Positions 2,610 through 21,310 of a DNA stretch of 64,000 bases are shown here, in pieces. The stretch covers positions 1 through 64,000 of the forward strand of contig NZ_CP036186.1 in the NCBI RefSeq assembly GCF_015291885.1. The letters run 5' to 3'. Source of the stretch: Stutzerimonas stutzeri. GTDB lineage: Bacteria > Pseudomonadota > Gammaproteobacteria > Pseudomonadales > Pseudomonadaceae. A program made the translations under genes and the position numbers. The notes under the pieces were generated by a model, which was not told the origin of the DNA, did not search any database, and saw only the letters and a program-made list of their open reading frames with translations. Numbering within the stretch: the stretch's first letter is position 1; each line of letters opens with the position of its first letter.

Positions 2610-6133
<3,524 letters not shown>

Positions 6134-6140
6134 TCCTAAG
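6134..6140. repeat. Target-site duplication, left copy
   Basis: TCCTAAG immediately follows the gyrB stop codon and is repeated exactly at 19540-19546, just outside the other end of the element. It reads as the 7-bp host sequence duplicated on insertion. Confidence 0.85.
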
Positions 6141-6186
6141 TGTCGATGGGCAGATTAATTGGCATGTTTGTGCGAGTTATTGGCAT
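6141..6186 (+). repeat. Left end: terminal inverted repeat plus sub-terminal repeats
   Basis: The tip TGTCGATGGGC is followed by TGGCAT at 6160-6165 and again at 6181-6186, the latter inside TTATTGGCATG. The tip and first TGGCAT align position for position with the inverted right end at 19515-19539. The second copy matches CATGCCAATAA at 19447-19457 in reverse complement. Confidence 0.82.
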
Positions 6187-6203
6187 GCCAAAATCAGCCA
6201 CTA

Positions 6204-6231
6204 CCCCGGCCTAGCGCCGGGGTTTTTCTTT
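6204..6231 (+). terminator. Rho-independent terminator inside the element's left end
   Basis: A 7-bp perfect stem (CCCCGGC / GCCGGGG) with a 5-base loop is followed by TTTTTCTTT. It lies 70 bp after gyrB but inside the mobile element, so it now terminates gyrB transcription and insulates the cargo. Confidence 0.9.
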
Positions 6232-6496
6232 CTGGATCAGTGTTTTAGAGAAAACTGAGCAGTGCCCAGAACGCGTTGTATGTAGTGAAGCTACAGGGGA
6301 ATCCGAGAAAATCTCGTTTTGAGAATGCAAAAATCTGGGAAACTTTAGGGACGAATGCAGCGCGGCAATTTATGGCAATCAGAACAGCATCGCCCATCAG
6401 CTCTTTTATATGGCGCTGATCGGTGGGTAGATAGGCAGTTCCGCATACCTCCAAATCGTGTGTTCACTAAACCCTTCTATCAACAAGGAAATGATG

Positions 6497-7357
6497 ATGG
6501 CTGACAGACCCATTGCCCAGCAGCACCATGAAACCTTTGAAGGAATCCGTCAGCTGGATCCTGATGGCAATGAGTTTTGGTTGGCCCGCCAACTTGCCAA
6601 GGTGCTGGACTACTCGCAGTACCGCCATTTTTTGCCGGTAATTGAGCGTGCGAAAGAGGCTTGCGTTAACAGTGGTCAGCCGGTGATAGACCATATTGAG
6701 GATGTCCTCACAATGGTTGATATCGGCTCTGGTGCCAAACGTCAGGTAGAGGACTTCAGGCTTTCCCGCTATGCCTGCTACCTCATCGTGCAAAATGGCG
6801 ACCCCGGAAAATCGGTGATCGCTAACGGGCAAACCTACTTTGCCATGCAAACGCGGCGACAAGAATTAGCTGATGACGCCAAATTCAGGCAGCTGAATGA
6901 AGATGAAAAACGCCTAGCCATTCGCAATGAACTGGCAGCCCACAACAAGCACCTGGCAGCTGCCGCCAAGGAAGCTGGTGTGGAAACCGGTATCGACTTT
7001 GCCATCTTCCAGGATTATGGATACAAAGGTCTTTATGGTGGCTTGGGTAATAAGGAAATTCACGCGCGCAAGGGCCTGAAAAAAAGTCAGAAAATCCTCG
7101 ACCACATGGGCAGTACCGAGTTGGCCGCCAACCTGTTCCGCGCCACGCAAACAGAAGAGAAACTGCGTCGGGATGAGGTGAGTGATAAGTCTCAGGCCAA
7201 CAAAACTCACTTTGAGGTTGGGCGTAAAGTACGCGAAACCATCGCTGAGTTGGGTGGCACTATGCCGGAAGGTCTACCCACACCAGACAGCAGCATCCAG
7301 CAGCTTGAGTCGGCCAAAAAGAAACTGGCTAAAAATGAAGATGGAAAACTGAACTGA
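6497..7357 (+). CDS. dinD: DinD family protein (DNA damage-inducible protein D)
   Basis: The protein resembles E. coli DinD nearly end to end: an N-terminal Bro-N-like region (FEGIRQLDPDGNEFWLARQL), LSRYACYLIVQNGDP in the middle, and LDHMGSTELAANLFRATQTE near residue 200. DinD is SOS-induced in E. coli and reported to inhibit RecA filament activity. Here it is the first cargo gene of the element. Three ATGs occur in a row at 6491, 6494 and 6497. The last is best spaced from the AAGGAA at 6485-6490, giving 286 residues. A GTG at 6458 would add 13 residues but lacks a good ribosome site. No LexA box is evident upstream, so regulation may differ from E. coli. Confidence 0.88.
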   Translation: MADRPIAQQHHETFEGIRQLDPDGNEFWLARQLAKVLDYSQYRHFLPVIERAKEACVNSGQPVIDHIEDVLTMVDIGSGAKRQVEDFRLSRYACYLIVQNGDPGKSVIANGQTYFAMQTRRQELADDAKFRQLNEDEKRLAIRNELAAHNKHLAAAAKEAGVETGIDFAIFQDYGYKGLYGGLGNKEIHARKGLKKSQKILDHMGSTELAANLFRATQTEEKLRRDEVSDKSQANKTHFEVGRKVRETIAELGGTMPEGLPTPDSSIQQLESAKKKLAKNEDGKLN

Positions 7358-7432
7358 TCACGCGTCCAAGGATGCCTATGGCAAGGGGCTAGCGTTTTAA
7401 ACCATAGATGGTTGCCCCACTGCCCTGCCAAG

Positions 7433-7467
7433 AAACCCCGATTGACTGAAAGGTCTGCCGGGGTTTT
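7433..7467 (+). terminator. Possible terminator after dinD
   Basis: An 8-bp inverted repeat (AAACCCCG / CGGGGTTT) with an 18-base loop ends in TTTT, about 75 bp after dinD and upstream of hsdM. The long loop makes it weaker than the other terminators in the window. Confidence 0.45.
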
Positions 7468-7610
7468 GTCATTCAAGGGAGGTTGATTTTTCGGGCTCCA
7501 AATGGCGTCGACTTGTACAATCGAGCCCACTTTTTTCTGATGTGCCCATGTGTCATGGCAGTAATCGCCAGGTGCTGGGCGTCGTGCTTTCTATAGGGAT
7601 TGATTTACCC

Positions 7611-9221
7611 ATGGCTGACAAGCTGTCACTCGAAACGCTGGAGTCCTGGCTCTGGGAATCCGCGAACATTCTGCGCGGTTCCATCGACTCCTCCGACTTC
7701 AAGAACTACATCTTCGGGCTGCTCTTCCTCAAACGCTACAATGACGTGTTCGAAGAGCGTATTGCCGAGCTAATGAAGGAAGAAGGCCTGAGTTTTGGTG
7801 ATGCCCAGGACGAGATCGAAGACAAATGGGGCAAGTTTCCTATCAGTGCCCGTTGGTTCGATCTGATATCGCGCACTGAGAATATTGGTGAAGCCCTGGA
7901 CAAGGCGTTCGCGACCATCGAAGCCAACAACCCAGAACTGCAACATGTGCTGACCGCTACGCAGTACGGCGATAAGCGGGTGCTGTCGGATGCTACCTTG
8001 CAACGTCTGCTGCGCCACTTTAACCAGTACAAGCTGGGCAATGACGACTTGTACAAGGCTGACATGCTGGGCGATGCCTACGAGTATTTGATCAAGCAGT
8101 TTGCCGATGACGCCGGTAAAAAAGGTGGCGAGTTCTATACGCCCAAGGCCGTGGTGCAATTGGTGGTTGAGCTAATTGACCCGCAACCCGGTCACAGCGT
8201 GTATGACCCCACCTGCGGCAGCGGCGGCATGTTGGTAGAGAGTGCCCACCATGTATCCGCTCTGCCCAATGGCACCCTGATGGGAAAGCCTAATGTTCTG
8301 CTTTATGGGCAGGAAAAGAACCTGGGCACCTGGGCCATCGCTAAGCTCAACCTATACCTGCACAACATGCATGCCGAGATTGAGCGCGGCGATACGCTCG
8401 TGGAGCCCAAGCACTTAGATGGTGATTACCTGAAGACCTTTGACCGGGTAATCGCTAATCCGCCGTTCTCAGCAAAGTCCTGGTGGACTCCGCTGGAACT
8501 AAGCAACGAGAACGAGCAAGACAGTGGCAAGAAGCTCAAGGCCCCCAACTACAGGCAGGTCAGTGACCCTTATGGTCGATTGGTCTATGGCGTCCCGCCA
8601 CGGAGCTATGCCGACCTCGCCTTTGCTCAACATATGTTGGCCAGCCTCAAGGCTGATGGCCGCATGGGAGTTATCCTGCCCCATGGCGTGCTATTCCGTA
8701 GCGGCGAGGAAGGCAAGATTCGCGAGGGGCTGCTCTTCGGCACCAACGCTGCTAGTGGCAATCAGCTGGGAGACCTGATCGAGGCCATCGTGGGCCTACC
8801 TCCCGCGTTGTTTTACAACACTCCCATTCCGGCTTGCGTACTAATTCTTAACAAGCAGAAACCGACGGCGCTCAAGGGCAAGATAATCATCATTGATGCG
8901 AGTGCCGACTTTGCTAATGACAAGGTGCAGAACAGTCTGCGCGCTGAAGACGTCACCCGTATCGTTAACACACACAAGGCGGCATTTGAGCAGCAGGTCG
9001 AAGTCGAAAACTATTGTCGGGTGGTAACGCTGGACGAAATCCGTAGTAATGACTGCAATCTCAATATCGCACGCTATATCGATAACGGAGAGACTACGGA
9101 AGTCGTGGATGTCGCCGCCACCTTATCTCAACTGGCTACGCTGGCTGAGGAAGAAGCGCAGATTGATGCGAGGTTGAACGGCTATCTGGTGGAGCTGGGC
9201 CTTAAAGGAGTGGAATTTTGA
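7611..9221 (+). CDS. hsdM: Type I restriction-modification DNA methyltransferase subunit HsdM
   Basis: HsdM transfers a methyl group from S-adenosylmethionine to adenine in the HsdS-defined target. The 536-residue protein has the N-terminal HsdM helical domain (about 1-140), the SAM-binding motif DPTCGSGGML near residue 200, and the N6-adenine catalytic motif NPPF near 282. The ATG at 7611 (MADKLSLETLESWLW) matches the usual start; an upstream ATG at 7542 would add an unconserved leader. Its stop overlaps the hsdS start, so the genes are coupled. Confidence 0.95.
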   Translation: MADKLSLETLESWLWESANILRGSIDSSDFKNYIFGLLFLKRYNDVFEERIAELMKEEGLSFGDAQDEIEDKWGKFPISARWFDLISRTENIGEALDKAFATIEANNPELQHVLTATQYGDKRVLSDATLQRLLRHFNQYKLGNDDLYKADMLGDAYEYLIKQFADDAGKKGGEFYTPKAVVQLVVELIDPQPGHSVYDPTCGSGGMLVESAHHVSALPNGTLMGKPNVLLYGQEKNLGTWAIAKLNLYLHNMHAEIERGDTLVEPKHLDGDYLKTFDRVIANPPFSAKSWWTPLELSNENEQDSGKKLKAPNYRQVSDPYGRLVYGVPPRSYADLAFAQHMLASLKADGRMGVILPHGVLFRSGEEGKIREGLLFGTNAASGNQLGDLIEAIVGLPPALFYNTPIPACVLILNKQKPTALKGKIIIIDASADFANDKVQNSLRAEDVTRIVNTHKAAFEQQVEVENYCRVVTLDEIRSNDCNLNIARYIDNGETTEVVDVAATLSQLATLAEEEAQIDARLNGYLVELGLKGVEF

Positions 9222-10567
9222 GCAGTTATTGCCATCAGTCTTCTCCAGTGGAAATACTCCCTAGTAATTGGCGCGTGATTCGTTTGCGAGATTTTGGCTA
9301 TGCCTATTCAGGGCTCTCAGGCAAGCGCAAAGAAGATTTTGGAACAGGCAGTTTTTATGTCCCCTACAAAAATATCTTCACGAATGGATTTGTAGATACA
9401 ACGAGCCTTGAAAAGGTGTCCATCTCTAGGGACGAAGTCCAGAACAAGGTTAAATACGGAGACATACTCTTTACCATTTCATCTGAAACGCCTGAAGATG
9501 TAGGCATGTCCGCTGTCATGGAGGAAGAGTTACCCTTCGAACTTTATCTGAATAGCTTTTGTTTTGGTTTCAGACCAACAAAGCCCCACCTTTTACCACG
9601 ATTTGCAGGTTATGCGTTTCGCTCGGATTATTTTCGAAAGAAAGTAGTTTTTCTTGCGCAGGGTTCAACTAGATACAACATTTCTAAAAATGGGGTTCTA
9701 GATATAGAGCTACCTATCCCCACATTTCCTGAGCAACAAAAAATAGCCTCGATCCTCACCGCTGTGGACGACAAACTGGAGGTGATTACCCGCCAGATTG
9801 AAGCTACACAGGCTCTGAAACAGGGCCTGATGCAAACCCTGTTCAGTAAGGGCGTAGGCACTCAAGATGCTACTGGTCGTTGGATTCCTCATACTGAGTT
9901 CAAGGACAGTGAACTCGGGAAGATTCCAGCGCTATGGGATGTTGGTGCGATAGCGGATTACGTATCAGCTCTCCGGTCTGGGGTCAGTGTTAACGCAGAA
10001 GATCGCGTACATGGTGATGATGAGGTTGGTGTCCTCAAGGTGAGTTGCGTGTCCCGTGGCGGGTTCTATCCGAATTGCCATAAGACTGTTGTGCCTGAGG
10101 AGCGGGAGCGCGTCGCCGAGCCCGTTTTACAGGGACGCATTATCGTCAGTCGAGCGAACACTCCTGCCTTGGTAGGTGAATCAGCCTATGTTGATTCTGC
10201 TTGGCCTAACTTGTATCTCCCAGACAAACTCTGGCAAATCGAGCCTTCCGAAAGGCCTCATTCGATAAAATGGCTGTCCTTCTATTTGCAGTCACCATTT
10301 GCTCGTCAAGAAATCAGCAAGGCAGCAACGGGCACAAGTGGCAGCATGAAGAACATCGCCAAGCCAGCATTTTTGAGTATTCGGATGCCCTTAGTTCCGC
10401 TAGCTGAGCAAGAACACATTGCCGCGATTCTTTCTGGCGTGACATCAAAGATTGAAGCCCTAAGCAGTAAACAAGGCCATTACCAAACCCTCAAGCGGGG
10501 CCTGATGCAAAAACTGCTAACCGGCGAATGGCCGGTCAAGCTCGATAGCCCTAGCGGTACAGTCTGA
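9218..10567 (+). CDS. hsdS: Type I restriction-modification specificity subunit HsdS
   Basis: HsdS sets the bipartite recognition sequence for HsdM and HsdR. The 449-residue protein has two target-recognition domains, each followed by a conserved helical spacer: FPEQQKIASILTAVDDKLE near 170 and LAEQEHIAAILSGVTSKIE near 395. Translation starts at TTG 9218, overlapping the hsdM stop as TTGA, with AAAGGAG at 9204-9210. The first recognition domain is visibly A/T-richer than the rest of the operon, as expected for exchanged specificity domains. The methylation target cannot be predicted by eye. Confidence 0.93.
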   Translation: MSSYCHQSSPVEILPSNWRVIRLRDFGYAYSGLSGKRKEDFGTGSFYVPYKNIFTNGFVDTTSLEKVSISRDEVQNKVKYGDILFTISSETPEDVGMSAVMEEELPFELYLNSFCFGFRPTKPHLLPRFAGYAFRSDYFRKKVVFLAQGSTRYNISKNGVLDIELPIPTFPEQQKIASILTAVDDKLEVITRQIEATQALKQGLMQTLFSKGVGTQDATGRWIPHTEFKDSELGKIPALWDVGAIADYVSALRSGVSVNAEDRVHGDDEVGVLKVSCVSRGGFYPNCHKTVVPEERERVAEPVLQGRIIVSRANTPALVGESAYVDSAWPNLYLPDKLWQIEPSERPHSIKWLSFYLQSPFARQEISKAATGTSGSMKNIAKPAFLSIRMPLVPLAEQEHIAAILSGVTSKIEALSSKQGHYQTLKRGLMQKLLTGEWPVKLDSPSGTV

Positions 10568-10577
10568 GTTTTTATTC

Positions 10578-11462
10578 ATGGATGAAATCACTCCCCTCTC
10601 CTCAAATCCGGTACCTGACCTTCAGCGAGTTGTGCAGCGCAAGCTTGGGCGCTGCATGTTGCAGTTGCAACTGTACGAGCGGCTGCTCAAGGCCATGGTG
10701 GCTCATAGCGAGCTGAGTGGCCCTCCGGAACGACTTCAGGCGATTCGTGAAGAGAAAGTTGCCTGTGCCCATAAGAAGACTCTGGGCACCTTGGTGGGGA
10801 TGCTGACCGAGAGCTATCTGAAGCTGCCGGACTTAGCTGATGAACCAGAGCAGGCTGAGCCTATTGATCAGATATGGGTCAGCTTCCGATACCAGATGGA
10901 GTTACCCGAGGAGCGATACGCCGAAACCAAGGCTGCACTCAAGGAACTGGTCGATCTGCGTAACGAGTTGGTGCACCACTTCCTTCAGCGCTTCGATCTT
11001 TGGGGCGTCGATGGCTGTATGGCCGCCGAGGTATACCTTGATGAAAGTTACGAAACCATCGACGGCCACTACCTGACGCTGCGCGATTGGGCCAAATCCA
11101 TGGATGAAGCTCGGCAGTATATGGTGTCGTTTATGCAGACCCCGGAGTATAGGGATTTCGTTATCAACGGTATTGGGCCGGATGGCACCGTGCACTGGGC
11201 TGGAAGCGGTATAACTAACTGCTTACGTGAAGCGGAAACCAAGCTAGCTCAGGCGGGGTGGACACCCCTTTTCGAGGCCATTCACTGGATTGCCAAGACC
11301 TATCCGGAGCAGACGCCCAAGCGCTATGGCTGCGGAAGTTGGCGTCATGTCATCCATGCGTCGCAGCAGTTTGAAATCCGCAAGCAAAGCCAAGCCGATA
11401 ATTGCGCTACGGTGGTTTGGTACCGCAGTCGTTCGAGGGAAACCTCCAAGGAACAGGAGTAA
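10578..11462 (+). CDS. HEPN-like plus OST-HTH/LOTUS-like protein within the hsd operon
   Basis: I do not recognise a named gene. The 294-residue protein has an all-helical N-terminal half containing DLRNELVHHF (R128 to H133), an Rx4H pattern typical of HEPN ribonuclease active sites. The C-terminal segment (about 211-284, from GITNCLREAE through AGWTPLFEAIHWIAKTYPEQ and RYGCGSWRHVIHASQQFEIR) resembles OST-HTH/LOTUS RNA-binding domains. It lies 10 bp after hsdS and 3 bp before hsdR, so it belongs to the operon. PrrC, a HEPN-type anticodon nuclease, occupies the same slot in the E. coli prr locus. I infer an RNA-targeting effector held in check by, or guarding, the Hsd complex. Both domain assignments are by eye. 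Confidence 0.6.
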   Translation: MDEITPLSSNPVPDLQRVVQRKLGRCMLQLQLYERLLKAMVAHSELSGPPERLQAIREEKVACAHKKTLGTLVGMLTESYLKLPDLADEPEQAEPIDQIWVSFRYQMELPEERYAETKAALKELVDLRNELVHHFLQRFDLWGVDGCMAAEVYLDESYETIDGHYLTLRDWAKSMDEARQYMVSFMQTPEYRDFVINGIGPDGTVHWAGSGITNCLREAETKLAQAGWTPLFEAIHWIAKTYPEQTPKRYGCGSWRHVIHASQQFEIRKQSQADNCATVVWYRSRSRETSKEQE

Positions 11463-11465
11463 GTA

Positions 11466-14400
11466 ATGAGCCAGTCACCGGAGAAGGTCGGGGTTGAGCT
11501 GCCCGCTATCAACTGGCTGATCAAGCTGGGCTACACCCATCTGCCTGGTACCCATGTACAAGTTGAGCATCGCCACCTGGCTCCGGTGCTGGATGATGTG
11601 TTGCAGGCTCGACTGCTCATCCTCAACCCATGGCTGGCGAGCGCCCCCGGTGGTATCAGCGCGGCGTTGATCGAGCTACGCAAGCGCGTCAATGATGAGC
11701 TGTTGCCCGCCAACAAGGCGTTCTGGGAACAGGTGGTGCATCGTTCGGATATCCAGGTGAAGGATGTCGAGGGCAAGCCCCGCAGCGTACGCTTCTTCGA
11801 TGCCAGTGATGCCAGCAACAACGACTTCCATGTGGTCGATCAGTATGTGGGGCGCAATGCGGATGGCGATGTTTTCCGCCCTGACCTGCTGTTGTTTGTG
11901 AATGGCTTGCCGCTGGCCATCATCGAATGCAAAGCCAGCCATCACCGCCTGGATGAAGCCCTGGGCCAGTTGGATGGCTACCAAAGTACCTTCCCAACCC
12001 AGTTTTTATTCAACCAGGTATGTGTTGGGCTTAATCGGCGTGAAGGGTTGTATGGCGCGATCCTGACCAAGCCTGCCTATTACGCCCGCTATCGGTTGCA
12101 GTCGCTGGAGACTACCGCTGTCACCGCCTTGTTAGGAGACGCGCCCAGTGAGCAGGACAGTCTCCTGTGGGCATTGTTCGAGCCGAGCCGCTTCCTGCAA
12201 CTGATCACCCATTTTGTGCTGTTTGAAACCCGCGACGGCAAGACGGTGAAGAAGCTGCCGCGCTATCAACAGTGGCGTGCCGTGCGCAAAACGGTGGATC
12301 GCCTGTACGCCCCGAAACCTTCAGGCGGCGTCGTTTGGCATACCCAGGGTAGCGGCAAGTCCCTGACCATGGCTCTGCTCGCGCGCATGCTGCGGGCAGA
12401 TAGCACAGGGTTAAAAAACCCAACCGTGTTGGTGCTGACCGACCGTAAAGACCTCGATAAGCAGATCTTCGACACCTTCCATGCGGTGGGCCTCAATGCC
12501 ATTCAGGCCGTGTCGGTTGATGGCCTGCTGAAGATGCTGTCTAACGACTACGGCAGCGTGTTCACCAGCACCGTGCAGAAGTTCCAGGAGAACGATCAGC
12601 CTACTGAGCAGGCTGCCGAGACGCCTGACGAAGAAGATGATGCCCTGCAAGCGACCCGCCACCGGCGGATTCGTGAGGAGAAGGACTTCTTCATCGTGCA
12701 TGAGCGTAATGTCCGCCACCTAGAGGTGGATGAGAGCGGTGTTCCGGTTAAGCCCAAGTGGGAAGAAATCAGCCGGGAAAAGGTGCACTTCCGAGTGCTG
12801 AGCACCAAGCCAAATTTCTATGTGCTGGTCGATGAAGCTCACCGTAGCCAGTACGACTTCCTCGCAGCTTTTATGCGCGCCAGCTTGCCCAACGCAAGGT
12901 TTATTGCCTTTACCGGCACACCTTTGCTGCAAGAGGACAAACACACGCTGGGCGAGTTTGGCGGTGGCGAGTACATCGACGAATATCGCCTGCATGAAGC
13001 GGTGGCGGATGGCGCAACCCTGCCGATCAAATACCAGGACGCCTGGGTAGCGCTGTCGGCCAATGCGGAGCTGGATGCCGCGTTCAAAGAGCAGTTCGCC
13101 GACCAGAGTGAAGTTCGTCAGCACGAGTTGAAGCGTGAGCTGCTGCGCCGCTGGCGTCAGGCCGGTGACCGCATGGAACAGGTCGCCGAGCATCTGGTCG
13201 AGCACTTCCTCAGCAGCGTAAAGGCCAAAGGTTTGAAGGCCATGCTGGTGTGCGATGGCCGCGACATGGCGGTGCGGTACAAGGATCTGCTCGATGCGAT
13301 CATGGTCGAGCGGGCACAAAAAGGGCTGCCGACCTTTGATAGCAAGGTGGTTATTTCCCTGGCCAGCATCACTTCTTCCCGTACCGGCGCTTCTGCCATG
13401 GAAGAGGCGGCAGCGTACGAGATTGAGACCGACAAAATCCGCAGCATCGAGGAACGTATCAAGGCTGAGTTGAAAGCCGGAAAGTCCCCGGTTGCCATGC
13501 CGTCTGAGCAGATCGGCAATTTCGTCAGCAAGCTGTTTCCCCTGCCCTACGGGGAAGAGAGTAAAGGGCTTGATGGTAAGCCGCAGGCGAACAACGTCGG
13601 GCTGATCATTGTTTCGGACATGCTGCTGACCGGCTGGGATGCCCCGATTGTTGGCACCATGTACCTCGATAAGCCGTTAAAAGAACACACCCTGTTGCAG
13701 GCCATCGCACGGGTGAACCGCACCCTGCCTGGCAAGAATGCCGGCTACATCGTGGATTACCATGGCGTGGTTGATCACCTTGATCACGCGCTGAAAATTT
13801 ACGGCGGCGAGGTGAAGCCTTCGCAGGTCTGGGAAGGTGTTGAAACCGAACTGCCTAAGCTGCAAGCCACACTCGACCGCATCCTTAAGTTGCTGCCGAA
13901 AAAGCATGACCCGGTGGCGCAGCGCGAGGCTTACAAAGACGACGCCGAGCGCTTCCTTGATCCTGCCACCAGGCTGGACATGGTCGAAGAGTTCCTCGAC
14001 CTGGTGAAGCAGTTCAACCGCTCAGTGGACATCATCCTGCCGGACGTACGCGGTGTACCGTTCAAGCCCTATTTCACCCTGCTCGGTGAAATTCGCCTGA
14101 TGCTGCGCGACAAACTGCCGGGTAATACCTACAAGGAACGCATCACCAAACTGGAGTCTGCACTGCTTCAGCAACTGCTGGATGAGTACATCGCTGCCAG
14201 TCCGGCCAAGAGCCTGCTGGGCCATGAGGTGTCGATTCTGGATGCCAGTGATATGGAGCGTTTAAAGAAACTGGCGAGCCCCGGTAGTCGCGCCCTGGTG
14301 ATGAAAAACCAGCTGAAGCAGACCATCGTTACCGGCAAAGACAAGGATCCCGCATTCTTCGACAAGATAGCCGAGGAGCTGGAAAAGCTGCTGGAAGAGG

Positions 14401-14750
14401 AAAAGGCGGGTCGTATTACCCAAGCCAAGTTCCTGGAGCAACTGGAGTTGTTCAGCCAGCGGATTCAGGACAAGGACAACACCGGTTTTGAAAAGCCCGC
14501 ACACTCGGCGGTGTACCACTACCTTGCCGCCCAACTGGCTGAGGACACGGCAAGAGTGGCAACGACCAAGCTGTTCGAAGATGAAATGCTGAACCGTGCG
14601 CTGGCGACTGAAAACTGGAAGAAAATGCCAGATACGCACCCTGACTTTCGAGACCACCTGCGCGGGGTCTTGATGCCTTTGGCGGGCTGGGAGCGCTCAG
14701 TAGCGCGTGATCACGCCAAGCGAATCTTCGATATTTTGCTGAAAAACTAA
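11466..14750 (+). CDS. hsdR: Type I restriction-modification endonuclease/translocase subunit HsdR
   Basis: HsdR is the motor and nuclease subunit that translocates and cuts unmodified DNA. The 1094-residue protein has an N-terminal PD-(D/E)xK nuclease region ([20 protein letters not shown], about 138-157), then a superfamily 2 helicase with Walker [10 protein letters not shown] near 293, DEAH near 456, FTGTPL near 480 and a C-terminal [18 protein letters not shown] region near 754. An AGGAG lies just before the ATG. It ends the core operon hsdM-hsdS-(HEPN-LOTUS)-hsdR and is followed closely by a peptidase gene. Confidence 0.95.
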
Positions 14751-14763
14751 CGCGGCGTTACCC

Positions 14764-15474
14764 ATGCCAGTATTGAATTACGGCCAAACGGCAATCGAGT
14801 GGTACTTCCAGCTCGATAGCAAACTCAAGCGCCACTACGTGACCGTGGAACGGGGGCGACCTGTTCTATTGCGCGGGCCGCAGGTGGATGAGCTTGAGCA
14901 AGAGGCTTTGGTGCTGCGCCGTGCACGCTGGATTAGGGAAAAGCTGGTACAGGTGAATCAGCCCCTTGCCAGCGAACCCATCGTGACGGGCAGTCGCCTG
15001 CGCTATGCCGGGCGTACGTATTTCACCGAGGTACGGCATACACCGGATATCCTCAAGCCCCGGCTCACCTTCACCGCATCGCGCTTCATCGTGGACAACC
15101 CGGATGGTGCAAGCATCCTGCCCGATGTGTTGATGCCGCTGCTTGAGCGGTTCTACCGGGATCGTGCTCATGAGAAGTTGTTGGTACGTGTCCGTCACTG
15201 GCAGCGAGAGACCGGTCTTCAGGCAAAAGGGGCTCGAATCCGCCACTTCCAAAGCCGTTGGGCCAGCTGCGATGCGAACCACATCCTGGAATTTCATCCT
15301 CGGGTGATGGAGTTGCCAACAAGCGTGCAGGATTACGTCATCGTCCATGAGCTTTGTCATACAGTGGAAAAGAACCATACCAAGGCCTTCTGGGCGCTGG
15401 TGGCAAGCCATATGCCGGATTGGCAGAGGCAGCATCAGGTGTTGGAAAGGGCGGTGTTTGGGGATGCGGTTTGA
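14764..15474 (+). CDS. YgjP-like zinc metallopeptidase (M48/DUF45 family)
   Basis: This 236-residue protein carries the zinc-peptidase motif HELCH near residue 196 in VIVHELCHTVEKNHTKAFW, with a downstream DWQR, as in YgjP/SprT-like DUF45 proteins. The region KGARIRHFQSRWASCD before it is also typical of that family. It starts 13 bp after hsdR and is probably in the same transcript. Members are often found beside type I restriction genes, where their role is unknown; processing or turnover of HsdR is one possibility. The substrate cannot be inferred from sequence. Confidence 0.82.
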   Translation: MPVLNYGQTAIEWYFQLDSKLKRHYVTVERGRPVLLRGPQVDELEQEALVLRRARWIREKLVQVNQPLASEPIVTGSRLRYAGRTYFTEVRHTPDILKPRLTFTASRFIVDNPDGASILPDVLMPLLERFYRDRAHEKLLVRVRHWQRETGLQAKGARIRHFQSRWASCDANHILEFHPRVMELPTSVQDYVIVHELCHTVEKNHTKAFWALVASHMPDWQRQHQVLERAVFGDAV

Positions 15475-15599
15475 TCTTCGGTGTTTGCCTTATTTGATTA
15501 ACGTTGAGCGGCTCGGGTTTAGACTTCTGAAATAGCTTTGACTGGGGCCACTATTGCCGTCACTTCTCCACCGGTTTTTGGGCAGGGTTAAGCCGATTA

Positions 15600-15854
15600 G
15601 TGGTTTTCCAAGGCCGGTTTGCGTGCATTGGCCTCAGTGTTTTTGGCTTTATGGTGGGCCTTGAATCTCTGCTCGGGGCATCGGCGGATCTTCCAAGCAC
15701 CGTAGACCCGGCCATGGATCTGACGGGACTAGGCCTTGTGCTGCTGATGCTTTACCTGGCGGCACCTACCTCCTCCACTACAAGCATTCGACCCAATGTG
15801 TCTGCCGCCGTCGAGCCCACGCTCGTTCCTGCTGAAAAGGAAGTCGCTGTATGA
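15600..15854 (+). CDS. Small hypothetical membrane protein
   Basis: This is an 84-residue reading frame beginning at GTG 15600, with two hydrophobic segments (about residues 8-25 and 41-54) and a polar C-terminus. I recognise no family. Its stop overlaps the ATG of the next, frameshifted gene (ATGA at 15851), which suggests translational coupling and supports it being real. The start is uncertain; an ATG at 15651 would leave only the second hydrophobic segment. Confidence 0.4.
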   Translation: MVFQGRFACIGLSVFGFMVGLESLLGASADLPSTVDPAMDLTGLGLVLLMLYLAAPTSSTTSIRPNVSAAVEPTLVPAEKEVAV

Positions 15855-16246
15855 AGGCTCTCAACTTTGTGATTTCCCTGATGCTGGGCAGTAGCAATTG
15901 CCTATGCCTTGCCTGACAGTGACTCGAAGCATCTGGTGACTAGCTGTCAGGCGTTGGTGGAAATTTATGCAAAACGCGATCAGCAGCATCTCCTGGCAGG
16001 GCTGACAACCTCTACCTCAGCGGCATTGCGTGCGGGATATTGCCGAGGCGTTCTAGACGAGTATCGGCGGAGCACTGACTTTTGCTACCAGGGCGACTGG
16101 TATGTTCAGGCTGCACGCATTGCGGAGTACCCCACGTATGCAGAGGATCTCCCAGCAGTAGATGAATTGTTGAAGCCAACCTACTTGCCAAACGACGGCT
16201 ACCCTGTCAGTGTAAATACGAATGTCATTACAGTGAGGGCCGCACC
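15851..16246 (+). pseudogene. Frameshifted secreted protein, possibly Rap1a/Tai-like
   Basis: ATG 15851 encodes the start of a signal peptide (MKALNFVISLMLG). Reading on in the same frame stops at 15914, but skipping one base near 15890 continues as VAIAYALPDSDSKH and about 110 further residues. Together these form a normal signal peptide with an AYA cleavage site. The mature part (SCQALVEIYAK, AGYCRGVLDEYRR, CYQGDW) resembles Rap1a/Tai-type periplasmic immunity proteins, though weakly. The open frame runs on into relB in another frame, so the 3' end is probably lost as well. A sequencing error near 15890 is an alternative to true decay. Confidence 0.5.
16211..16232 (+). promoter_or_regulatory. 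Possible relBE operator
   Basis: TGTAA and TTACA form an inverted repeat with a 12-bp spacer, 14 bp before the relB start. RelB-type antitoxins autoregulate by binding such repeats at their promoter. The arms are short, so this is tentative. Confidence 0.25.
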
Positions 16247-16486
16247 ATGGCGTCCATCAATATCCGCATCGACGACGAGCTTAAGGCGCGTGCTTACCAG
16301 GAGCTGGAAAAGCTCGGCGTCACCCCCTCTGAACTGATGCGCCAGGCTTTGCAGTATGTGGCCGAGCGCGGACAGCTGCCATTTCGCCCGGTGCTGATGA
16401 CCGAGGAAGATGAAGCGTTAATCGCCACGGTTCGTGAACGCCTGGCCGCTCCTCAGCGCGTGAAGGTTGCGCTGGATGACCTATAG
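16247..16486 (+). CDS. relB: Antitoxin RelB
   Basis: The 79-residue protein closely resembles E. coli RelB. It has the ribbon-helix-helix N-terminus ASINIRIDDELKARAYQELE, which dimerises and binds DNA, then LGVTPSELMRQALQYVAE, and a C-terminal tail that would wrap and neutralise RelE. Its end overlaps the relE start by 11 bp, the usual coupling in this toxin-antitoxin operon. Inside a mobile element it probably helps stabilise the element. Confidence 0.93.
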   Translation: MASINIRIDDELKARAYQELEKLGVTPSELMRQALQYVAERGQLPFRPVLMTEEDEALIATVRERLAAPQRVKVALDDL

Positions 16487-16763
16487 CCTTGAGTTTGATG
16501 CGCGGGCACTGAAGGAATGGCAAAAACTGGGTGATACCGTTCGCCAGCAACTCAAGAAGAAGCTCGCTGAGGTATTGTTGAATCCGCGAATTGAAGCCAA
16601 CCGGCTCCATTCGCTGCCGGATTGCTACAAGATCAAGCTGCGCAGCAGCGGCTATCGCCTGGTGTATCAGGTGATTGATCATGAGGTGGTGGTGTTTGTG
16701 GTCGCGGTTGATCGCCGTGAGCGCGAGCAGGCGTACCGCAAGGCAGCCGAGCGTCTTAAATAG
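16476..16763 (+). CDS. relE: Toxin RelE (ribosome-dependent mRNA interferase)
   Basis: RelE cleaves mRNA in the ribosomal A site when RelB is degraded. The 95-residue product from ATG 16476 follows E. coli RelE almost residue for residue: YSLEFDARALKEWQKLG at the start and the active-site stretch DCYKIKLRSSGYRLVYQV with its Lys and Arg residues. It ends with an Arg/Tyr-containing tail (RREREQAYRKA). An upstream in-frame ATG at 16467 would add three residues. The toxin looks intact. Confidence 0.93.
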   Translation: MTYSLEFDARALKEWQKLGDTVRQQLKKKLAEVLLNPRIEANRLHSLPDCYKIKLRSSGYRLVYQVIDHEVVVFVVAVDRREREQAYRKAAERLK

Positions 16764-16807
16764 CGGGCTCAACTGTTCCCCTATGACTGAAAGGTGGTCT
16801 CGGCACG

Positions 16808-19195
16808 ATGAGTGGTGATGATCTGCTTGAGTATCTACGGGCCGAAAATGCACGCTTGATCGCGCTGTTGGAAGCGCATGGTGTTGAGTGGCGCTTGCCT
16901 GACGAGCCGCCGCTAGTTGAACCGACTAGCCCGCCTCCACTGATAAGTTCGAGTCTCGACACGGATGCCAAGTTGGCGTTGTTCAGGCGACTGTTTCGGG
17001 GGCGAACCGATGTGTTTCCCGTGCGCTGGGAAAGCAAGGCCGGTAAATCGGGCTACTCTCCGGCGTGCGCCAATGAATGGCGTCCAGGCGTGTGTGAGAA
17101 GCCACGGATCAAGTGCGGAGATTGCTCGTTCCGCCAACTCCTGCCGCTGACTGATCAGGTGCTCTACAAGCATCTGGCCGGAGAGATTGTCATCGGCGTT
17201 TACCCGTTGCTGCCAGACGACACCTGCTACTTCCTGGCGGTGGATTTTGACGAGGCCGATTGGCGCGCGGATGTCACGGCGTTCGCTCAGTCTTGCCGCG
17301 AGTTAGATGTGCCGGTGGCCCTGGAGATTTCCCGCTCCGGTAACGGGGCGCATGCCTGGATTTTCTTTGAGCGTAATGTCCCCGCCTATGAGGCGCGCCT
17401 GCTCGGCTCCGCGATCATCAGTCATACCTGTGAGCGTACCCGGCAACTGACGCTGGGCTCGTATGACCGACTGTTTCCAAATCAGGACAGCATGCCCAAA
17501 GGCGGCTTTGGTAACTTGATTGCCTTGCCCTTGCAGAAGCGAGCTCGCGCGCTCAACGGCAGTGTTTTTGCCGATGAGACGTTGGTGGCCTATCCCGACC
17601 AATGGGCATTTCTGGCCAGCATTCAGCCTATGCCCGTGCAGGATATTGCGCCGAAAACCCTGCTGGCCACTGGAGGTCGGCATCCGTTGGATGTCACCGC
17701 AGTAGCGGATGACGAGGAGTCGAAACCCTGGCAGCGCACAGCGGAAAAGACTCAGAAATTGGCTTGTCCGTTACCCGAGTCAGTGAACGTTACCCTGGCC
17801 AACCAGATCTATTTCGACAAGTCCGAACTGCCCCAGCCATTGGTCAACAAGCTCATCCGCTTGGCGGCCTTTCAGAACCCCGAATTCTACAAGGCACAGG
17901 CCATGCGTCTGCCTGTGTGGAACAAGCCCCGGATCATTGGTTGCGCGGAAAACTTTCCCCAGCATATTGCCTTGCCCCGTGGCTGCCTGGATGACGTGCG
18001 GGCATTGCTGCATGACAACGGGATTGAGCTGGTGCTGCACGATGAGCGCTTCGCTGGAGAGCCCATCGATGTCCACTTTGCGGGCACGCTACGCCCGGAT
18101 CAAGAGGCTGCTCTCGAAGGCATGTTGGCGCACGACACCGGCGTCCTCTGTGCGCCCACTGCTTTTGGAAAAACCGTCACGGCTGCCGCGCTGATTGCCC
18201 GGCGTGGTGTGAACACGCTGGTGCTGGTGCACCGGACGGAGTTGCTCCAGCAGTGGAAGGAGCGGTTGCAGGCGTTTCTGGGTGCAGACACAACGAAAGT
18301 CGGCACCACCGGCGGTGGTAAGACCAAGCCGACAGGCATCATCGATATTGCAGTAATGCAGTCCTTGTCGCGGCAGGGCGAAGTCAGCGAGCAGGTGAAA
18401 AACTACGGGCTAATCATCGTAGATGAGTGCCACCACCTGTCAGCCTTTTCGTTCGAGGCCCTCCTCAAGACTACTGGGGCTAAATATGTGGTGGGGCTGA
18501 CTGCTACACCCATACGTCGTGATGGTAAGCAGCCGATTATCTTCATGCAGTGCGGGCCCATTCGGCATACCGCGAGCCGGCCCGAGAGTGCTCCTACTGA
18601 TTTGGCCGTGACTCCTCAGTGGTTGTCACGACCAATCGTCATGCCTGAAGGAGCAGGCATCCAGGATGTTTTCTTGCAGGTGTGCAACGACACGGAGCGA
18701 ACAGCCAAGGTTGTTGTCGAGGTCGGAGAGGCTTTTGACCAAGGCCGGAAGATCCTGGTGCTGACAGAGCGAACGGATCACCTCAGTGCCATTGAGGAGC
18801 AGCTGGTTGGCCGGGTCGAGAATCTATTTACGCTGCATGGGCGGTTGTCCAAGAAGCAGCGCACTGCCCTAATCGGCGAGTTGGAAGCACTGCCACCCGA
18901 TGCACCACGGGTGATCCTGGCGACTGGGAAACTGGTCGGAGAGGGGTTCGACCATCCGGCATTGGATACTTTGGTATTGGCCATGCCGGTTTCCTGGAAG
19001 GGCACTCTCCAGCAGTATGCGGGCCGCCTGCACCGGGAACATGCGAGTAAGGCTGATGTGCGCATCATCGACTTCATTGATGCCGGACATCCTGCTTTGC
19101 TGCGTATGTGGAGCAAGCGCCAAGCGGGTTACAAGGCGATGGGCTATCGATTTGCTGATTCGTCCAGCTCAATGGAGCTGTTGGCAAAGGGCTAA
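16808..19195 (+). CDS. Archaeo-eukaryotic primase and SF2 helicase fusion (TOTE conflict-system type)
   Basis: The 795-residue protein starts with a short helical segment, then a Cys cluster (CANEWRPGVC and CGDC, about 86-105) likely to bind zinc. A primase fold follows, with the metal-binding pair in AVDFDEADW near 146, the SGNGAHAW motif near 176 and GFGNLIALPLQ near 236. The C-terminal half is a helicase with Walker A variant APTAFGKT near 450, DECHH near 539, LTATPIRRD near 563 and QQYAGRLHRE near 736. This order matches what domain libraries call the TOTE conflict-system primase (from memory). No separate nuclease partner is beside it. It closes the cargo of the mobile element. Confidence 0.8.
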   Translation: MSGDDLLEYLRAENARLIALLEAHGVEWRLPDEPPLVEPTSPPPLISSSLDTDAKLALFRRLFRGRTDVFPVRWESKAGKSGYSPACANEWRPGVCEKPRIKCGDCSFRQLLPLTDQVLYKHLAGEIVIGVYPLLPDDTCYFLAVDFDEADWRADVTAFAQSCRELDVPVALEISRSGNGAHAWIFFERNVPAYEARLLGSAIISHTCERTRQLTLGSYDRLFPNQDSMPKGGFGNLIALPLQKRARALNGSVFADETLVAYPDQWAFLASIQPMPVQDIAPKTLLATGGRHPLDVTAVADDEESKPWQRTAEKTQKLACPLPESVNVTLANQIYFDKSELPQPLVNKLIRLAAFQNPEFYKAQAMRLPVWNKPRIIGCAENFPQHIALPRGCLDDVRALLHDNGIELVLHDERFAGEPIDVHFAGTLRPDQEAALEGMLAHDTGVLCAPTAFGKTVTAAALIARRGVNTLVLVHRTELLQQWKERLQAFLGADTTKVGTTGGGKTKPTGIIDIAVMQSLSRQGEVSEQVKNYGLIIVDECHHLSAFSFEALLKTTGAKYVVGLTATPIRRDGKQPIIFMQCGPIRHTASRPESAPTDLAVTPQWLSRPIVMPEGAGIQDVFLQVCNDTERTAKVVVEVGEAFDQGRKILVLTERTDHLSAIEEQLVGRVENLFTLHGRLSKKQRTALIGELEALPPDAPRVILATGKLVGEGFDHPALDTLVLAMPVSWKGTLQQYAGRLHREHASKADVRIIDFIDAGHPALLRMWSKRQAGYKAMGYRFADSSSSMELLAKG

Positions 19196-19387
19196 TGAGC
19201 CCTTAAACCGCCACCAAGCTTTCCGTCCGTCGGAGGTGGAAAGTGGCTGTTTCCTATGCGGTGGATTCGCCGTAATCTGGGTTGCATTGACAGGTTGTCA
19301 ATCCAAGCCGTGGCTTGAGGCCTGCCTCCACCACGTCGGCTGTCTTACCGAAATGTAGTGCTGCACGCGGCTCGATTCAGGGGCTTG

Positions 19388-19539
19388 CGGAAAATGACAC
19401 TAATTGCGGTAATTTCGGCGGAAAATGCCACTTTATGTGGCTCAATCATGCCAATAATGGTGCCCATTGCTTTTCGTAAGTCATTGATTTAATTGAGTTT
19501 ACCTGTGGTTCTGAATGCCAGGTTTGTCGCCCGTCGACA
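19388..19539 (-). repeat. Right end: terminal inverted repeat plus sub-terminal repeats
   Basis: Read inward on the minus strand, the tip is TGTCGACGGGC. TGGCAT copies lie at 19515-19520, 19448-19453 and 19425-19430, with a variant TGTCAT at 19394-19399. The innermost two sit in near-identical 15-bp units (GCGGAAAATGACACT / GCGGAAAATGCCACT on the plus strand). Four copies here against two on the left is an asymmetric array like transposase-binding sites of Tn7-type ends. Confidence 0.75.
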
Positions 19540-19546
19540 TCCTAAG
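19540..19546. repeat. Target-site duplication, right copy
   Basis: TCCTAAG directly follows the element's terminal ACA and is identical to the copy at 6134-6140. Removing the element and one copy rejoins the gyrB stop to the terminator at 19580 over about 40 bp. Confidence 0.85.
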
Positions 19547-19579
19547 CTGTCCTCTTTACGGTCATCGACCTAAAACAGA

Positions 19580-19605
19580 CCCCGGCCTTGCAAGCCGGGG
19601 TTTTT
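19580..19605 (+). terminator. Terminator, probably the original gyrB terminator
   Basis: A 7-bp stem (CCCCGGC / GCCGGGG) with a 7-base loop is followed by TTTTTCGTTT. It lies 34 bp outside the element's right flank, the distance expected of a terminator originally just downstream of gyrB. It now stops transcription leaving the element before ahpF. Confidence 0.9.
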
Positions 19606-19680
19606 CGTTTCAGAAATAGGCAGAGTGAATCGCAGCGACTGGTTTAATCAATTTCGAACACGCCCCTGCTAAGCGTATGG

Positions 19681-19740
19681 TTAACCCATCAAGTTACTCA
19701 CCTTACCGCGCCTTTAGCGCAAACACATTTGATGGGGTAA
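19681..19740 (+). promoter_or_regulatory. Hairpin-forming ahpF leader that could mask the ribosome site
   Basis: TTAACCCATCAA (19681-19692) pairs with TTGATGGGGTAA (19729-19740) at 11 of 12 positions, and the right arm contains the GGGG ribosome site 10 bp before ahpF. A smaller GCGC hairpin (19708-19720) nests inside. It could regulate translation, or the arms could be an operator; the sequence alone does not decide. Confidence 0.4.
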
Positions 19741-19747
19741 ATCGCTT

Positions 19748-21310
19748 ATGTTGGACACCAATCTCAAGACCCAGTTGAAAGCCTACCTGGAGAAGGTCAC
19801 CCAGCCCTTCGAGATCGTCGCGTCCCTCGATGACGGCGAGAAGTCCCAGGAAATGCTGAGCCTGCTGCAGGACATCGCCAGCCTCAGCGACAAGATCACT
19901 CTGAAGACCGACGGCGACGATGCACGCAAGCCGTCGTTCTCGCTCAACCGCATCGGCGGCAACATCAGCCTGCGTTTTGCAGGCATCCCCATGGGCCACG
20001 AATTCACCTCGCTGGTGCTGGCCCTGCTGCAGGTCGGCGGTCACCCGTCGAAGACCGCGCCGGAGGTGATCGAGCAGATCAAGGCGCTGGATGGCGACTA
20101 CCGCTTCGAAACCTACTTCTCGCTGTCCTGCCAGAACTGCCCGGACGTGGTCCAGGCGCTGAACCTGATGGCCGTGCTCAATCCGAACATCAAGCATGTC
20201 GCCATCGACGGCGCGCTGTTCCAGGACGAGGTCGAAGCCCGCCAGATCATGTCCGTGCCGAGCATCTACCTCAACGGCGAGCTGTTCACCCAGGGCCGCA
20301 TGAGCGAGGAAGAGATCCTCGCCAAGCTCGACACCGGCTCAAGCGCCCGTGACGCCGAGAAGCTCAAGGCCAAGGATGCCTTCGACGTGCTGGTGGTCGG
20401 TGGTGGCCCGGCCGGCGCCGCAGCGGCCATCTACGCTGCGCGCAAGGGCATCCGCACCGGTGTGGCGGCCGAGCGCTTTGGCGGCCAGGTGCTGGACACC
20501 ATGGCCATCGAGAACTTCATCTCGGTGAAGGAAACCGAAGGCCCGAAACTTGCCCGCGCCCTGGAAGAGCATGTGCGCGAGTACGACGTCGATATCATGA
20601 ACCTGCAGCGCGCCAGCCAGCTGATCCCGGCGGGCGAAGACGGTCTGCACCGGGTGCAGTTCGAGAACGGCGGCGAGCTCAAGGCCAAGACCCTGATCCT
20701 GGCTACAGGCGCCCGCTGGCGCGAAATGAACGTGCCCGGCGAGCAGGAATACCGCGGCCGTGGCGTCGCCTACTGCCCGCACTGTGACGGCCCGCTGTTC
20801 AAGGGCAAGCGCGTGGCGGTGATCGGCGGCGGTAACTCCGGCGTGGAAGCGGCCATCGACCTGGCCGGCATCGTCGCTCACGTGACCCTGCTCGAGTTCG
20901 GCGAGGAACTGCGTGCCGACGCCGTGCTGCAGCGCAAGCTCAACAGCCTGCCCAATGTTCGCGTGCTCAAGATGGCGCAGACCACCGAGGTCAAAGGCGA
21001 CGGCCAGAAGGTCACCGGCCTGGTCTACAAGGACCGCACCAGCGACGAGGTGCACGAGGTCGAGCTGGAAGGCATCTTCGTGCAGATTGGCCTGCTGCCC
21101 AACAGCGAATGGCTCAAGGGCACCCTGGAGCTGTCCCGTTTCGGCGAGATCATCGTCGACGCCAAGGGCCAGACCAGCATCCCCGGCGTGTTCGCCGCCG
21201 GTGACGTGACCACGGTGCCGTACAAGCAGATCGTGATCGCCGTGGGTGAAGGCGCCAAGGCCTCGCTGAGCGCCTTCGATCACCTGATCCGGTCTTCCGC
21301 TCCGGCCTGA
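19748..21310 (+). CDS. ahpF: Alkyl hydroperoxide reductase subunit F
   Basis: AhpF is the NADH-dependent flavoprotein that reduces the peroxiredoxin AhpC. The 520-residue protein has the N-terminal tandem thioredoxin-fold domain with SCQNC (about 128-131), then FAD-binding [10 protein letters not shown] near 218, the redox-active CPHC (about 342-345) in the thioredoxin reductase-like part, NADH-binding [10 protein letters not shown] near 359, and a C-terminal FAD motif (FAAGDVTT). ahpC, usually adjacent, is not in this window. A structured leader precedes it and a strong bidirectional terminator follows. Confidence 0.96.

Follow-up and report, generated by a model that had tools for sequence, protein, structure and literature searches.

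A 64,000-nucleotide stretch of Stutzerimonas stutzeri contig NZ_CP036186.1 (positions 1 to 64,000, hereafter the window) contains, directly after gyrB, a 13.4-kb element at 6141-19539 that can best be explained as a non-autonomous derivative of a Tn7-like transposon homing to the 3′ end of gyrB, a reading whose probability we put at about 0.9. In the window sequence, the element begins with TGTCGATGGGC, located 7 nt past the gyrB stop codon, ends with GCCCGTCGACA, and is flanked on both sides by TCCTAAG. When both strands were checked, this heptamer was found in the window at 6134 and 19540 only, and the tip 11-mers occur in the window at the two borders only. An earlier reading made from the sequence alone (the sequence-only reading) had given exactly these tips, repeats and coordinates and had proposed a mobile element with exact borders. 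The bare tip 11-mer occurs 13 times in forward and 10 times in reverse orientation in the 4.64-Mb genome, compared to 8 and 11 times for a control; since it is not rare, the tip alone proves little, and the borders rest on homology instead.

The homology in relatives supports both borders. A 167-bp left-end query was compared with 56 congeneric genomes, the window's own included, and gave strong matches in the window genome and in six others (G051, G021, G020, G023, G010, and G054), in all six of which the match begins exactly at the tip and the flank remains outside; weaker matches in this set are short and lie around a hairpin of the left end. Right-end matches in eight of nine other genomes end within 2 nt of the tip, and the match in G010 ends 49 nt before the tip, yet the tip itself is present. 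No match to the left end was found among plasmids. As one of the 56 genomes had no gyrB match, 55 sites 3′ of gyrB could be read: 34 were scored as empty, defined by a shared downstream motif within 300 bp of gyrB, seven carry this tip (the window included), five carry another tip, and nine are of other kinds, some of which may be empty with diverged downstream sequence. In the empty site of G035, about 40 bp separate gyrB from a terminator-like hairpin, beyond which the sequence is like the right flank of the window; in that flank, the gene beyond the right-hand hairpin is a putative ahpF. Empty sites in relatives, which the sequence-only reading had named as a check, are therefore numerous.

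At this site, full-length relatives that share the ends of the window element encode a Tn7-like transposition module. The 28.5-kb element of G023 encodes, consecutively, a TnsA-like protein of 238 aa, a Mu-transpos_C protein of 636 aa, a TniB/TnsC ATPase of 330 aa, and a TniQ protein of 626 aa with an HTH_17 match, and the same four proteins are found in BAL361 (G020) at 85-94% identity and in P. boanensis at 70-81%. Tn5053/Tn552-type elements have a TniA/TniB core without a TnsA-like endonuclease. The sequence-only reading had suggested looking for a same-end element with a transposase, which these three provide, and had supposed that the mobilising enzyme might be unusual and outside the Tn7 families; since same-end relatives encode TnsA, TnsB, TnsC, and TniQ, the latter suggestion was not borne out, and an unusual recombinase was set aside.

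In the window element itself, no transposase was seen among the open reading frames (ORFs) scanned or by tblastn with the cognate TnsABC-TniQ, as the sequence-only reading had observed. Five proteins of the G023 tns region gave no tblastn match to the window element at 1e-5, whereas BAL361, P. boanensis, UMAB-08, and G152 were matched; at E 10, the best match anywhere in the window had an E-value of 0.33. None of tnsA, tnsB, tnsC, and tnsD/tniQ was thus found in the element, which is for this reason filed as a non-autonomous derivative and not as a complete Tn7-like transposon. It is not alone in this respect, because tblastn also found no tns match in the elements of G051, G021, G054, and PIC25, and the G010 genome has no Mu-transpos_C match. 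The window genome gave no cognate TnsB match at 1e-30 and no TniQ match at 1e-10. A small ORF of the G023 tns region, orf111, has a weak match in G011 as well.

The ends of the element have the organization of Tn7-like ends, namely TGT/ACA inverted tips with several TnsB-type repeats per end. Eleven left ends align without gaps and have in common the tip TGTCGRYGGGC, the repeats TTGKCATG and TTATTGKCATG, and the invariant ACCCCGGCCTAGCGCCGGGGTTTT at 62-85 bp. These repeats would be expected to bind TnsB. The invariant stretch belongs to an intrinsic-terminator-like hairpin, which folds in the window at −16.6 kcal/mol (z −3.25) and probably terminates gyrB transcription. In a mechanical scan, 20 of 24 gyrB-proximal ends of three end types and 7 of 1500 random cargo stretches showed a hairpin followed by a T-rich tail, under rules looser than those of a first scan (13 of the 24 elements scored, seven with a hairpin; controls 5 of 2000) and applied alike to elements and controls. 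The four ends missed are those of PIC25, which has the same hairpin with a broken T run, G167, G150, which by eye shows a hairpin with a short T run, and G181.

The preference for gyrB could be examined with a left-end pattern free of gyrB sequence, which was run over species-representative genomes and returned 21 stretches. Nine of them show the full left end (second repeat plus hairpin), and all nine lie directly after gyrB, in five Stutzerimonas genomes, Pseudomonas PIC25, SJZ079, and boanensis, and Atopomonas. Related tips occur at nine further Pseudomonas loci, with a TnsB match of 36-39% identity in six of the nine genomes, and the last three matches are outside the family, a number close to chance by hand estimate. 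At the related-tip loci, a sister family homing to terminator hairpins was considered and rejected: in UMAB-08 (L124, G233/G308), the only one of the nine that was traced, the other eight being judged by analogy, the tip is the far end of the element, the TnsB gene lies between this tip and gyrB, and the other tip stands directly after gyrB. The UMAB-08 flanks, read by eye, show a 5-bp AGGCC duplication. Right ends of the G152 element and of SJZ079 were looked for and not found.

Searches with the transposition proteins lead to the same place. TnsB matches at 1e-30 were obtained in 11 of 298 family genomes, with relatives down to 25% identity, and in the nine genomes that have gyrB and TnsB on one contig (G023, G134, G233, G158, G152, G184, G167, G150, and G181), TnsB always starts approximately 11-22 kb beyond the gyrB stop codon; G020 and G177 have the two genes on different contigs. 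A TGTCG or TGTAGG tip follows gyrB in nine of the TnsB genomes, that is, in all of the 11 except G023 and G020. TniQ matches at 1e-10 were present in 13 of the 298 genomes, two of which (G083 and G263, at 21-24%) have TniQ only. All 24 gyrB-proximal tips, representing three end types, are located 4-7 nt past the stop codon; five of these (G004, G005, G030, G039, and G044) were chosen by a tip after gyrB and hence give no independent support for the target. Such a fixed insertion point beside a conserved gene is what Tn7-like transposons show.

The second end type at the same spot after gyrB is TGTAGGTGG with AAAGTTA repeats, seen in G004, G030, G039, and G044 and as a variant in G005 (loci L037, L044, L049, L177, and L051 for G004, G005, G030, G039, and G044). 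In G005, on one contig, and in G004, on two contigs, a left end of the TGTAGGTGG type is accompanied near ahpF by a right end of the window's type, which suggests mixed or stacked elements. In addition, a second left end is found 5 bp past a right end in P. boanensis (L181:119-160) and G011 (L079:5435-5451), which points to tandem stacking of elements, or of what remains of them, at this gene.

The length of the target duplication had been taken in the sequence-only reading as a possible sign of an unusual enzyme. An unusual non-Tn7 enzyme making 7-bp duplications would account for both the 7-bp repeat and the lack of a transposase in the window, but it is very improbable because TnsABC-TniQ is encoded in same-end elements at this very site and because five of the seven elements with both flanks read on one contig (G051, G021, G054, G023, and P. 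boanensis) have a 5-bp duplication, the exceptions being the window (7 bp) and PIC25 (4 bp). G004, G005, and G011 are outside this count, because each has either a left tip of a different type or none that could be found. The 7 bp of the window make up the entire stretch between the gyrB stop and the tip, and the simplest idea is an occasional wider stagger.

Comparison with BAL361 points to the place at which the tns genes were probably lost. Window positions 11458-15483 and 16175-20000 are each 91% identical to BAL361, and between these blocks BAL361 has approximately 10.3 kb, including tnsABC-tniQ and other genes, where the window has 0.7 kb. Further left, 7413-9210 and 10478-11432 match BAL361 at 87% and 91%, respectively, hsdS is mostly divergent, and no dinD match was found in the BAL361 stretches searched. 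BAL361 is assumed here to be one element; the evidence from P. boanensis and G023 is independent of that assumption. Other blocks have other closest relatives. The left block of the window (6141-7827, 1687 bp) and its counterpart in S. stutzeri V81 (L070) share 97.7% identity, beginning at the tip, while the compared gyrB DNA is 81% identical, which argues for recent spread between species; DinD is 99.7% identical in this pair, and the right blocks are 89% identical. The BAL361 and G023 alignments are most simply read as descent from an ancestor that had tns in its middle part, with later loss and a degree of block exchange.

Several observations weigh against the derivation from a Tn7-like transposon. 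The TnsA-like gene before tnsB in the relatives scores below the curated cut-offs (NF033179 at 43.5 bits and PF08722 at 22.1 bits). Duplications of 7 bp in the window and 4 bp in PIC25 depart from the 5 bp of Tn7-like elements, and BAL361 and G010, in each of which the two ends lie on separate contigs, show no duplication. Window positions 15548-16176, which lie where BAL361 has its tns genes, share 92% identity across 631 bp with DNA on the downstream side of tniQ in G023 and do not resemble BAL361; no element seen could therefore have given rise to the window copy by one clean deletion. The left end of BAL361 is on contig C397 and the rest on C18, and the contig ends do not overlap. The window genome gave no TnsC match at E 10 in a search without a positive control, and TnsA was not sought genome-wide. 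The borders, the target, and the conserved ends can be read directly from the sequence, as can the lack of tns genes where a partly colinear relative has them, in a genome without a cognate TnsB, TniQ, or TnsC match.

Under the Tn7-like reading, a selector of the TniQ/TnsD type would recognize the end of gyrB and direct the TnsABC transposase to a point 4-7 nt past the stop codon, which would leave gyrB intact. The gyrB-proximal end would bring with it the repeats for TnsB and a terminator of its own, which would replace the native gyrB terminator displaced to the far side. In the window lineage, tnsABC-tniQ would once have stood with the YgjP gene on one side and the relBE-TOTE block on the other, and its loss would have left conserved ends enclosing cargo of the defence type; such an element could presumably move if TnsABC-TniQ were supplied in trans.

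Whether it still does so divides two views of its present state. It might be a living satellite that is moved by the TnsABC-TniQ of incoming full-length relatives, a view we hold to be possible but somewhat doubtful. Conservation of the window ends equals that seen in autonomous members, transposase-less copies with the same ends are common (those of the window, G051, G021, G054, and PIC25, together with G010), and the left block shared with V81 is found across diverged hosts and with different flanks; however, there is no direct evidence of movement after the loss, and with right blocks at only 89%, the common left end could have been inherited from an autonomous ancestor or acquired when elements recombined. 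We lean slightly towards the other view, in which the element is a defence island, dead and domesticated, that is retained only for what it carries and has been rearranged through homologous recombination at the common site. This is consistent with the mosaic blocks of different best relatives, the mismatched flanks of BAL361 and G010 (read from separate contigs), and the decayed copies with remnants in G005 and, as a second left end, in P. boanensis, although the window element has kept its two ends and its flanking duplication intact.

Compared to Tn7 and Tn7-like transposons (TnsABC with TnsD/TniQ), the gyrB elements are similar in the TGT...ACA ends with several internal repeats, in the TnsA, TnsB, TnsC, and TniQ of full-length relatives, in the 5-bp duplications of most relatives, in the fixed insertion just downstream of a conserved essential gene, and in defence cargo. 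They differ from Tn7 in that the target is gyrB rather than glmS, that the window copy has a 7-bp duplication and no tns genes, and that its gyrB-proximal end contains a terminator-like hairpin. In kind the element is ordinary, while its target, the hairpin in its end, and the loss of its transposase set it somewhat apart. Restriction-modification is the commonest defence cargo of Tn7-like transposons in PMC8649781; Tn7017 (PMC11406308), a CAST of type I-F3 whose TniQ targets a parE att site, likewise inserts beside the gene of a type II topoisomerase B subunit but uses parE, not gyrB, and is CRISPR-associated; and the Tn6022 family (PMC10293859), which is also Tn7-like with a fixed chromosomal target gene (comM), employs a short TniQ with TnsF, whereas the relatives of the gyrB element have the single 626-aa TniQ. 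No description of gyrB as a Tn7-like target was found by title or abstract start among the matches listed, and the main texts of PMC10293859, PMC8649781, and PMC11406308, supplements aside, contain no word beginning with "gyr"; in the available part of PMC12452197, gyrB serves as a phylogenetic marker.

After parE, gyrB would be the second topoisomerase gene pointed to as a Tn7-type landing site. The element also illustrates that the ends of a defence island lacking any gene for mobility can reveal the transposase to which it belongs, and the conserved hairpin suggests how an insertion just after an essential gene may spare the transcript of that gene. The 24 gyrB-proximal ends provide a ready set for the question of how TniQ reads gyrB, and the exact borders allow defence cargo to be delimited in Pseudomonas and Stutzerimonas.

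The features of the element and its surroundings are listed in the table below.

Features of the gyrB-associated element and its flanks in the window
Feature	Position	Strand	Basis
gyrB, target gene	3719..6133	+	ORF; homologous gyrB at same junction in relatives
Left copy of 7-bp duplication TCCTAAG	6134..6140	.	Sequence
Left tip TGTCGATGGGC	6141..6151	+	Sequence; 11 left ends aligned
Left-end repeats TTGGCATG and TTATTGGCATG, candidate TnsB sites	6159..6187	+	Common to right end; conserved as TTGKCATG in 11 aligned left ends
Intrinsic-terminator-like hairpin inside left end	6203..6230	+	Fold; 24-nt stretch invariant in 11/11 left ends
DinD-like (Bro-N) protein	6491..7357	+	NCBIfam NF008573, 446 bits; PF02498
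HsdM	7611..9221	+	PF02384, PF12161
HsdS	9218..10567	+	PF01420
OST-HTH/LOTUS-domain protein within restriction-modification operon, between hsdS and hsdR	10578..11462	+	PF12872, 1.5e-9
HsdR	11466..14750	+	PF04313, PF18766
YgjP-like metallopeptidase	14764..15474	+	PF01863
Segment where BAL361 (G020) has ~10.3 kb including tnsABC-tniQ	15484..16174	.	Alignment
RelB-like antitoxin candidate	16247..16486	+	ORF; assigned by place before relE, without family search
RelE/ParE-type toxin of toxin-antitoxin pair	16467..16763	+	PF05016, TIGR02385
TOTE archaeo-eukaryotic primase and helicase, beside right end	16808..19195	+	PF22548, 330 bits; PF04851
Right-end repeats around TGGCAT/TGTCAT, candidate TnsB sites	19389..19522	-	12 right ends aligned
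Right tip TGTCGACGGGC	19529..19539	-	Sequence; 12 right ends aligned
Right copy of 7-bp duplication TCCTAAG	19540..19546	.	Sequence
Terminator-like hairpin outside element, taken as native gyrB terminator	19579..19605	+	Sequence; similar hairpin in empty sites

The conflict-gene cargo described in the sequence-only reading was borne out, with profile matches for the type I restriction-modification operon, the OST-HTH protein, the toxin of the RelBE-type pair, and the primase-helicase; that reading did not mention dinD, which lies close to the left end, or the YgjP-like gene, or the hairpin within the left end. The cargo probably defends against phage. The OST-HTH protein has no PADLOC or NCBIfam match, its search against PDB sequences returned one match at E 0.78, and its single-sequence structure model was unusable (mean pLDDT 35). 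It contains RNELVHH, a candidate motif resembling the HEPN Rx4H pattern, and BAL361 has an ORF of 299 aa at the corresponding place.

Next to the right end, no gene recurs more often than that of the TOTE primase-helicase, in elements with as well as without a transposase, though it is not present in all of them. It is found near the right end in the window, G051, G021, G054, G004, G011, BAL361, and P. boanensis, and in part in UMAB-08, where the last 320 residues match, and SJZ079, which has a 156-aa piece. Since the stretches read of G023, G010, PIC25, and G005 gave no match, and SJZ079 has only its piece, TOTE was rejected as a fixed part of the group. No paper on TOTE was found in the literature search. 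As a tentative proposal, the Pseudomonadaceae might hold an undescribed Tn7-like group with at least three end types and TnsB proteins down to approximately 25% identity, all homing to the 3′ end of gyrB, mostly with a replacement terminator in the gyrB-proximal end, and spawning transposase-less satellites such as the window element; TOTE, which many members keep beside the far end with or without tns, may then serve the element itself, for instance by repairing or protecting it once inserted, in addition to defence.

The window genome also contains another Tn7-like TnsABCD operon, complete-looking and with a second TniQ gene, at about 4.61 Mb (G000:C1:4604362-4612351, L105). This resident element was considered as a helper and rejected, as its proteins are not cognate to those of G023: its TnsB aligns with the G023 protein over one 74-residue stretch at 27% identity (E 2.6e-7), and its TnsD over a 68-residue stretch (E 0.003). 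The genome has four TniQ-domain stretches altogether, and the one below the family cut-off, at G000:C1:2673225-2673752, carries an internal TGA.

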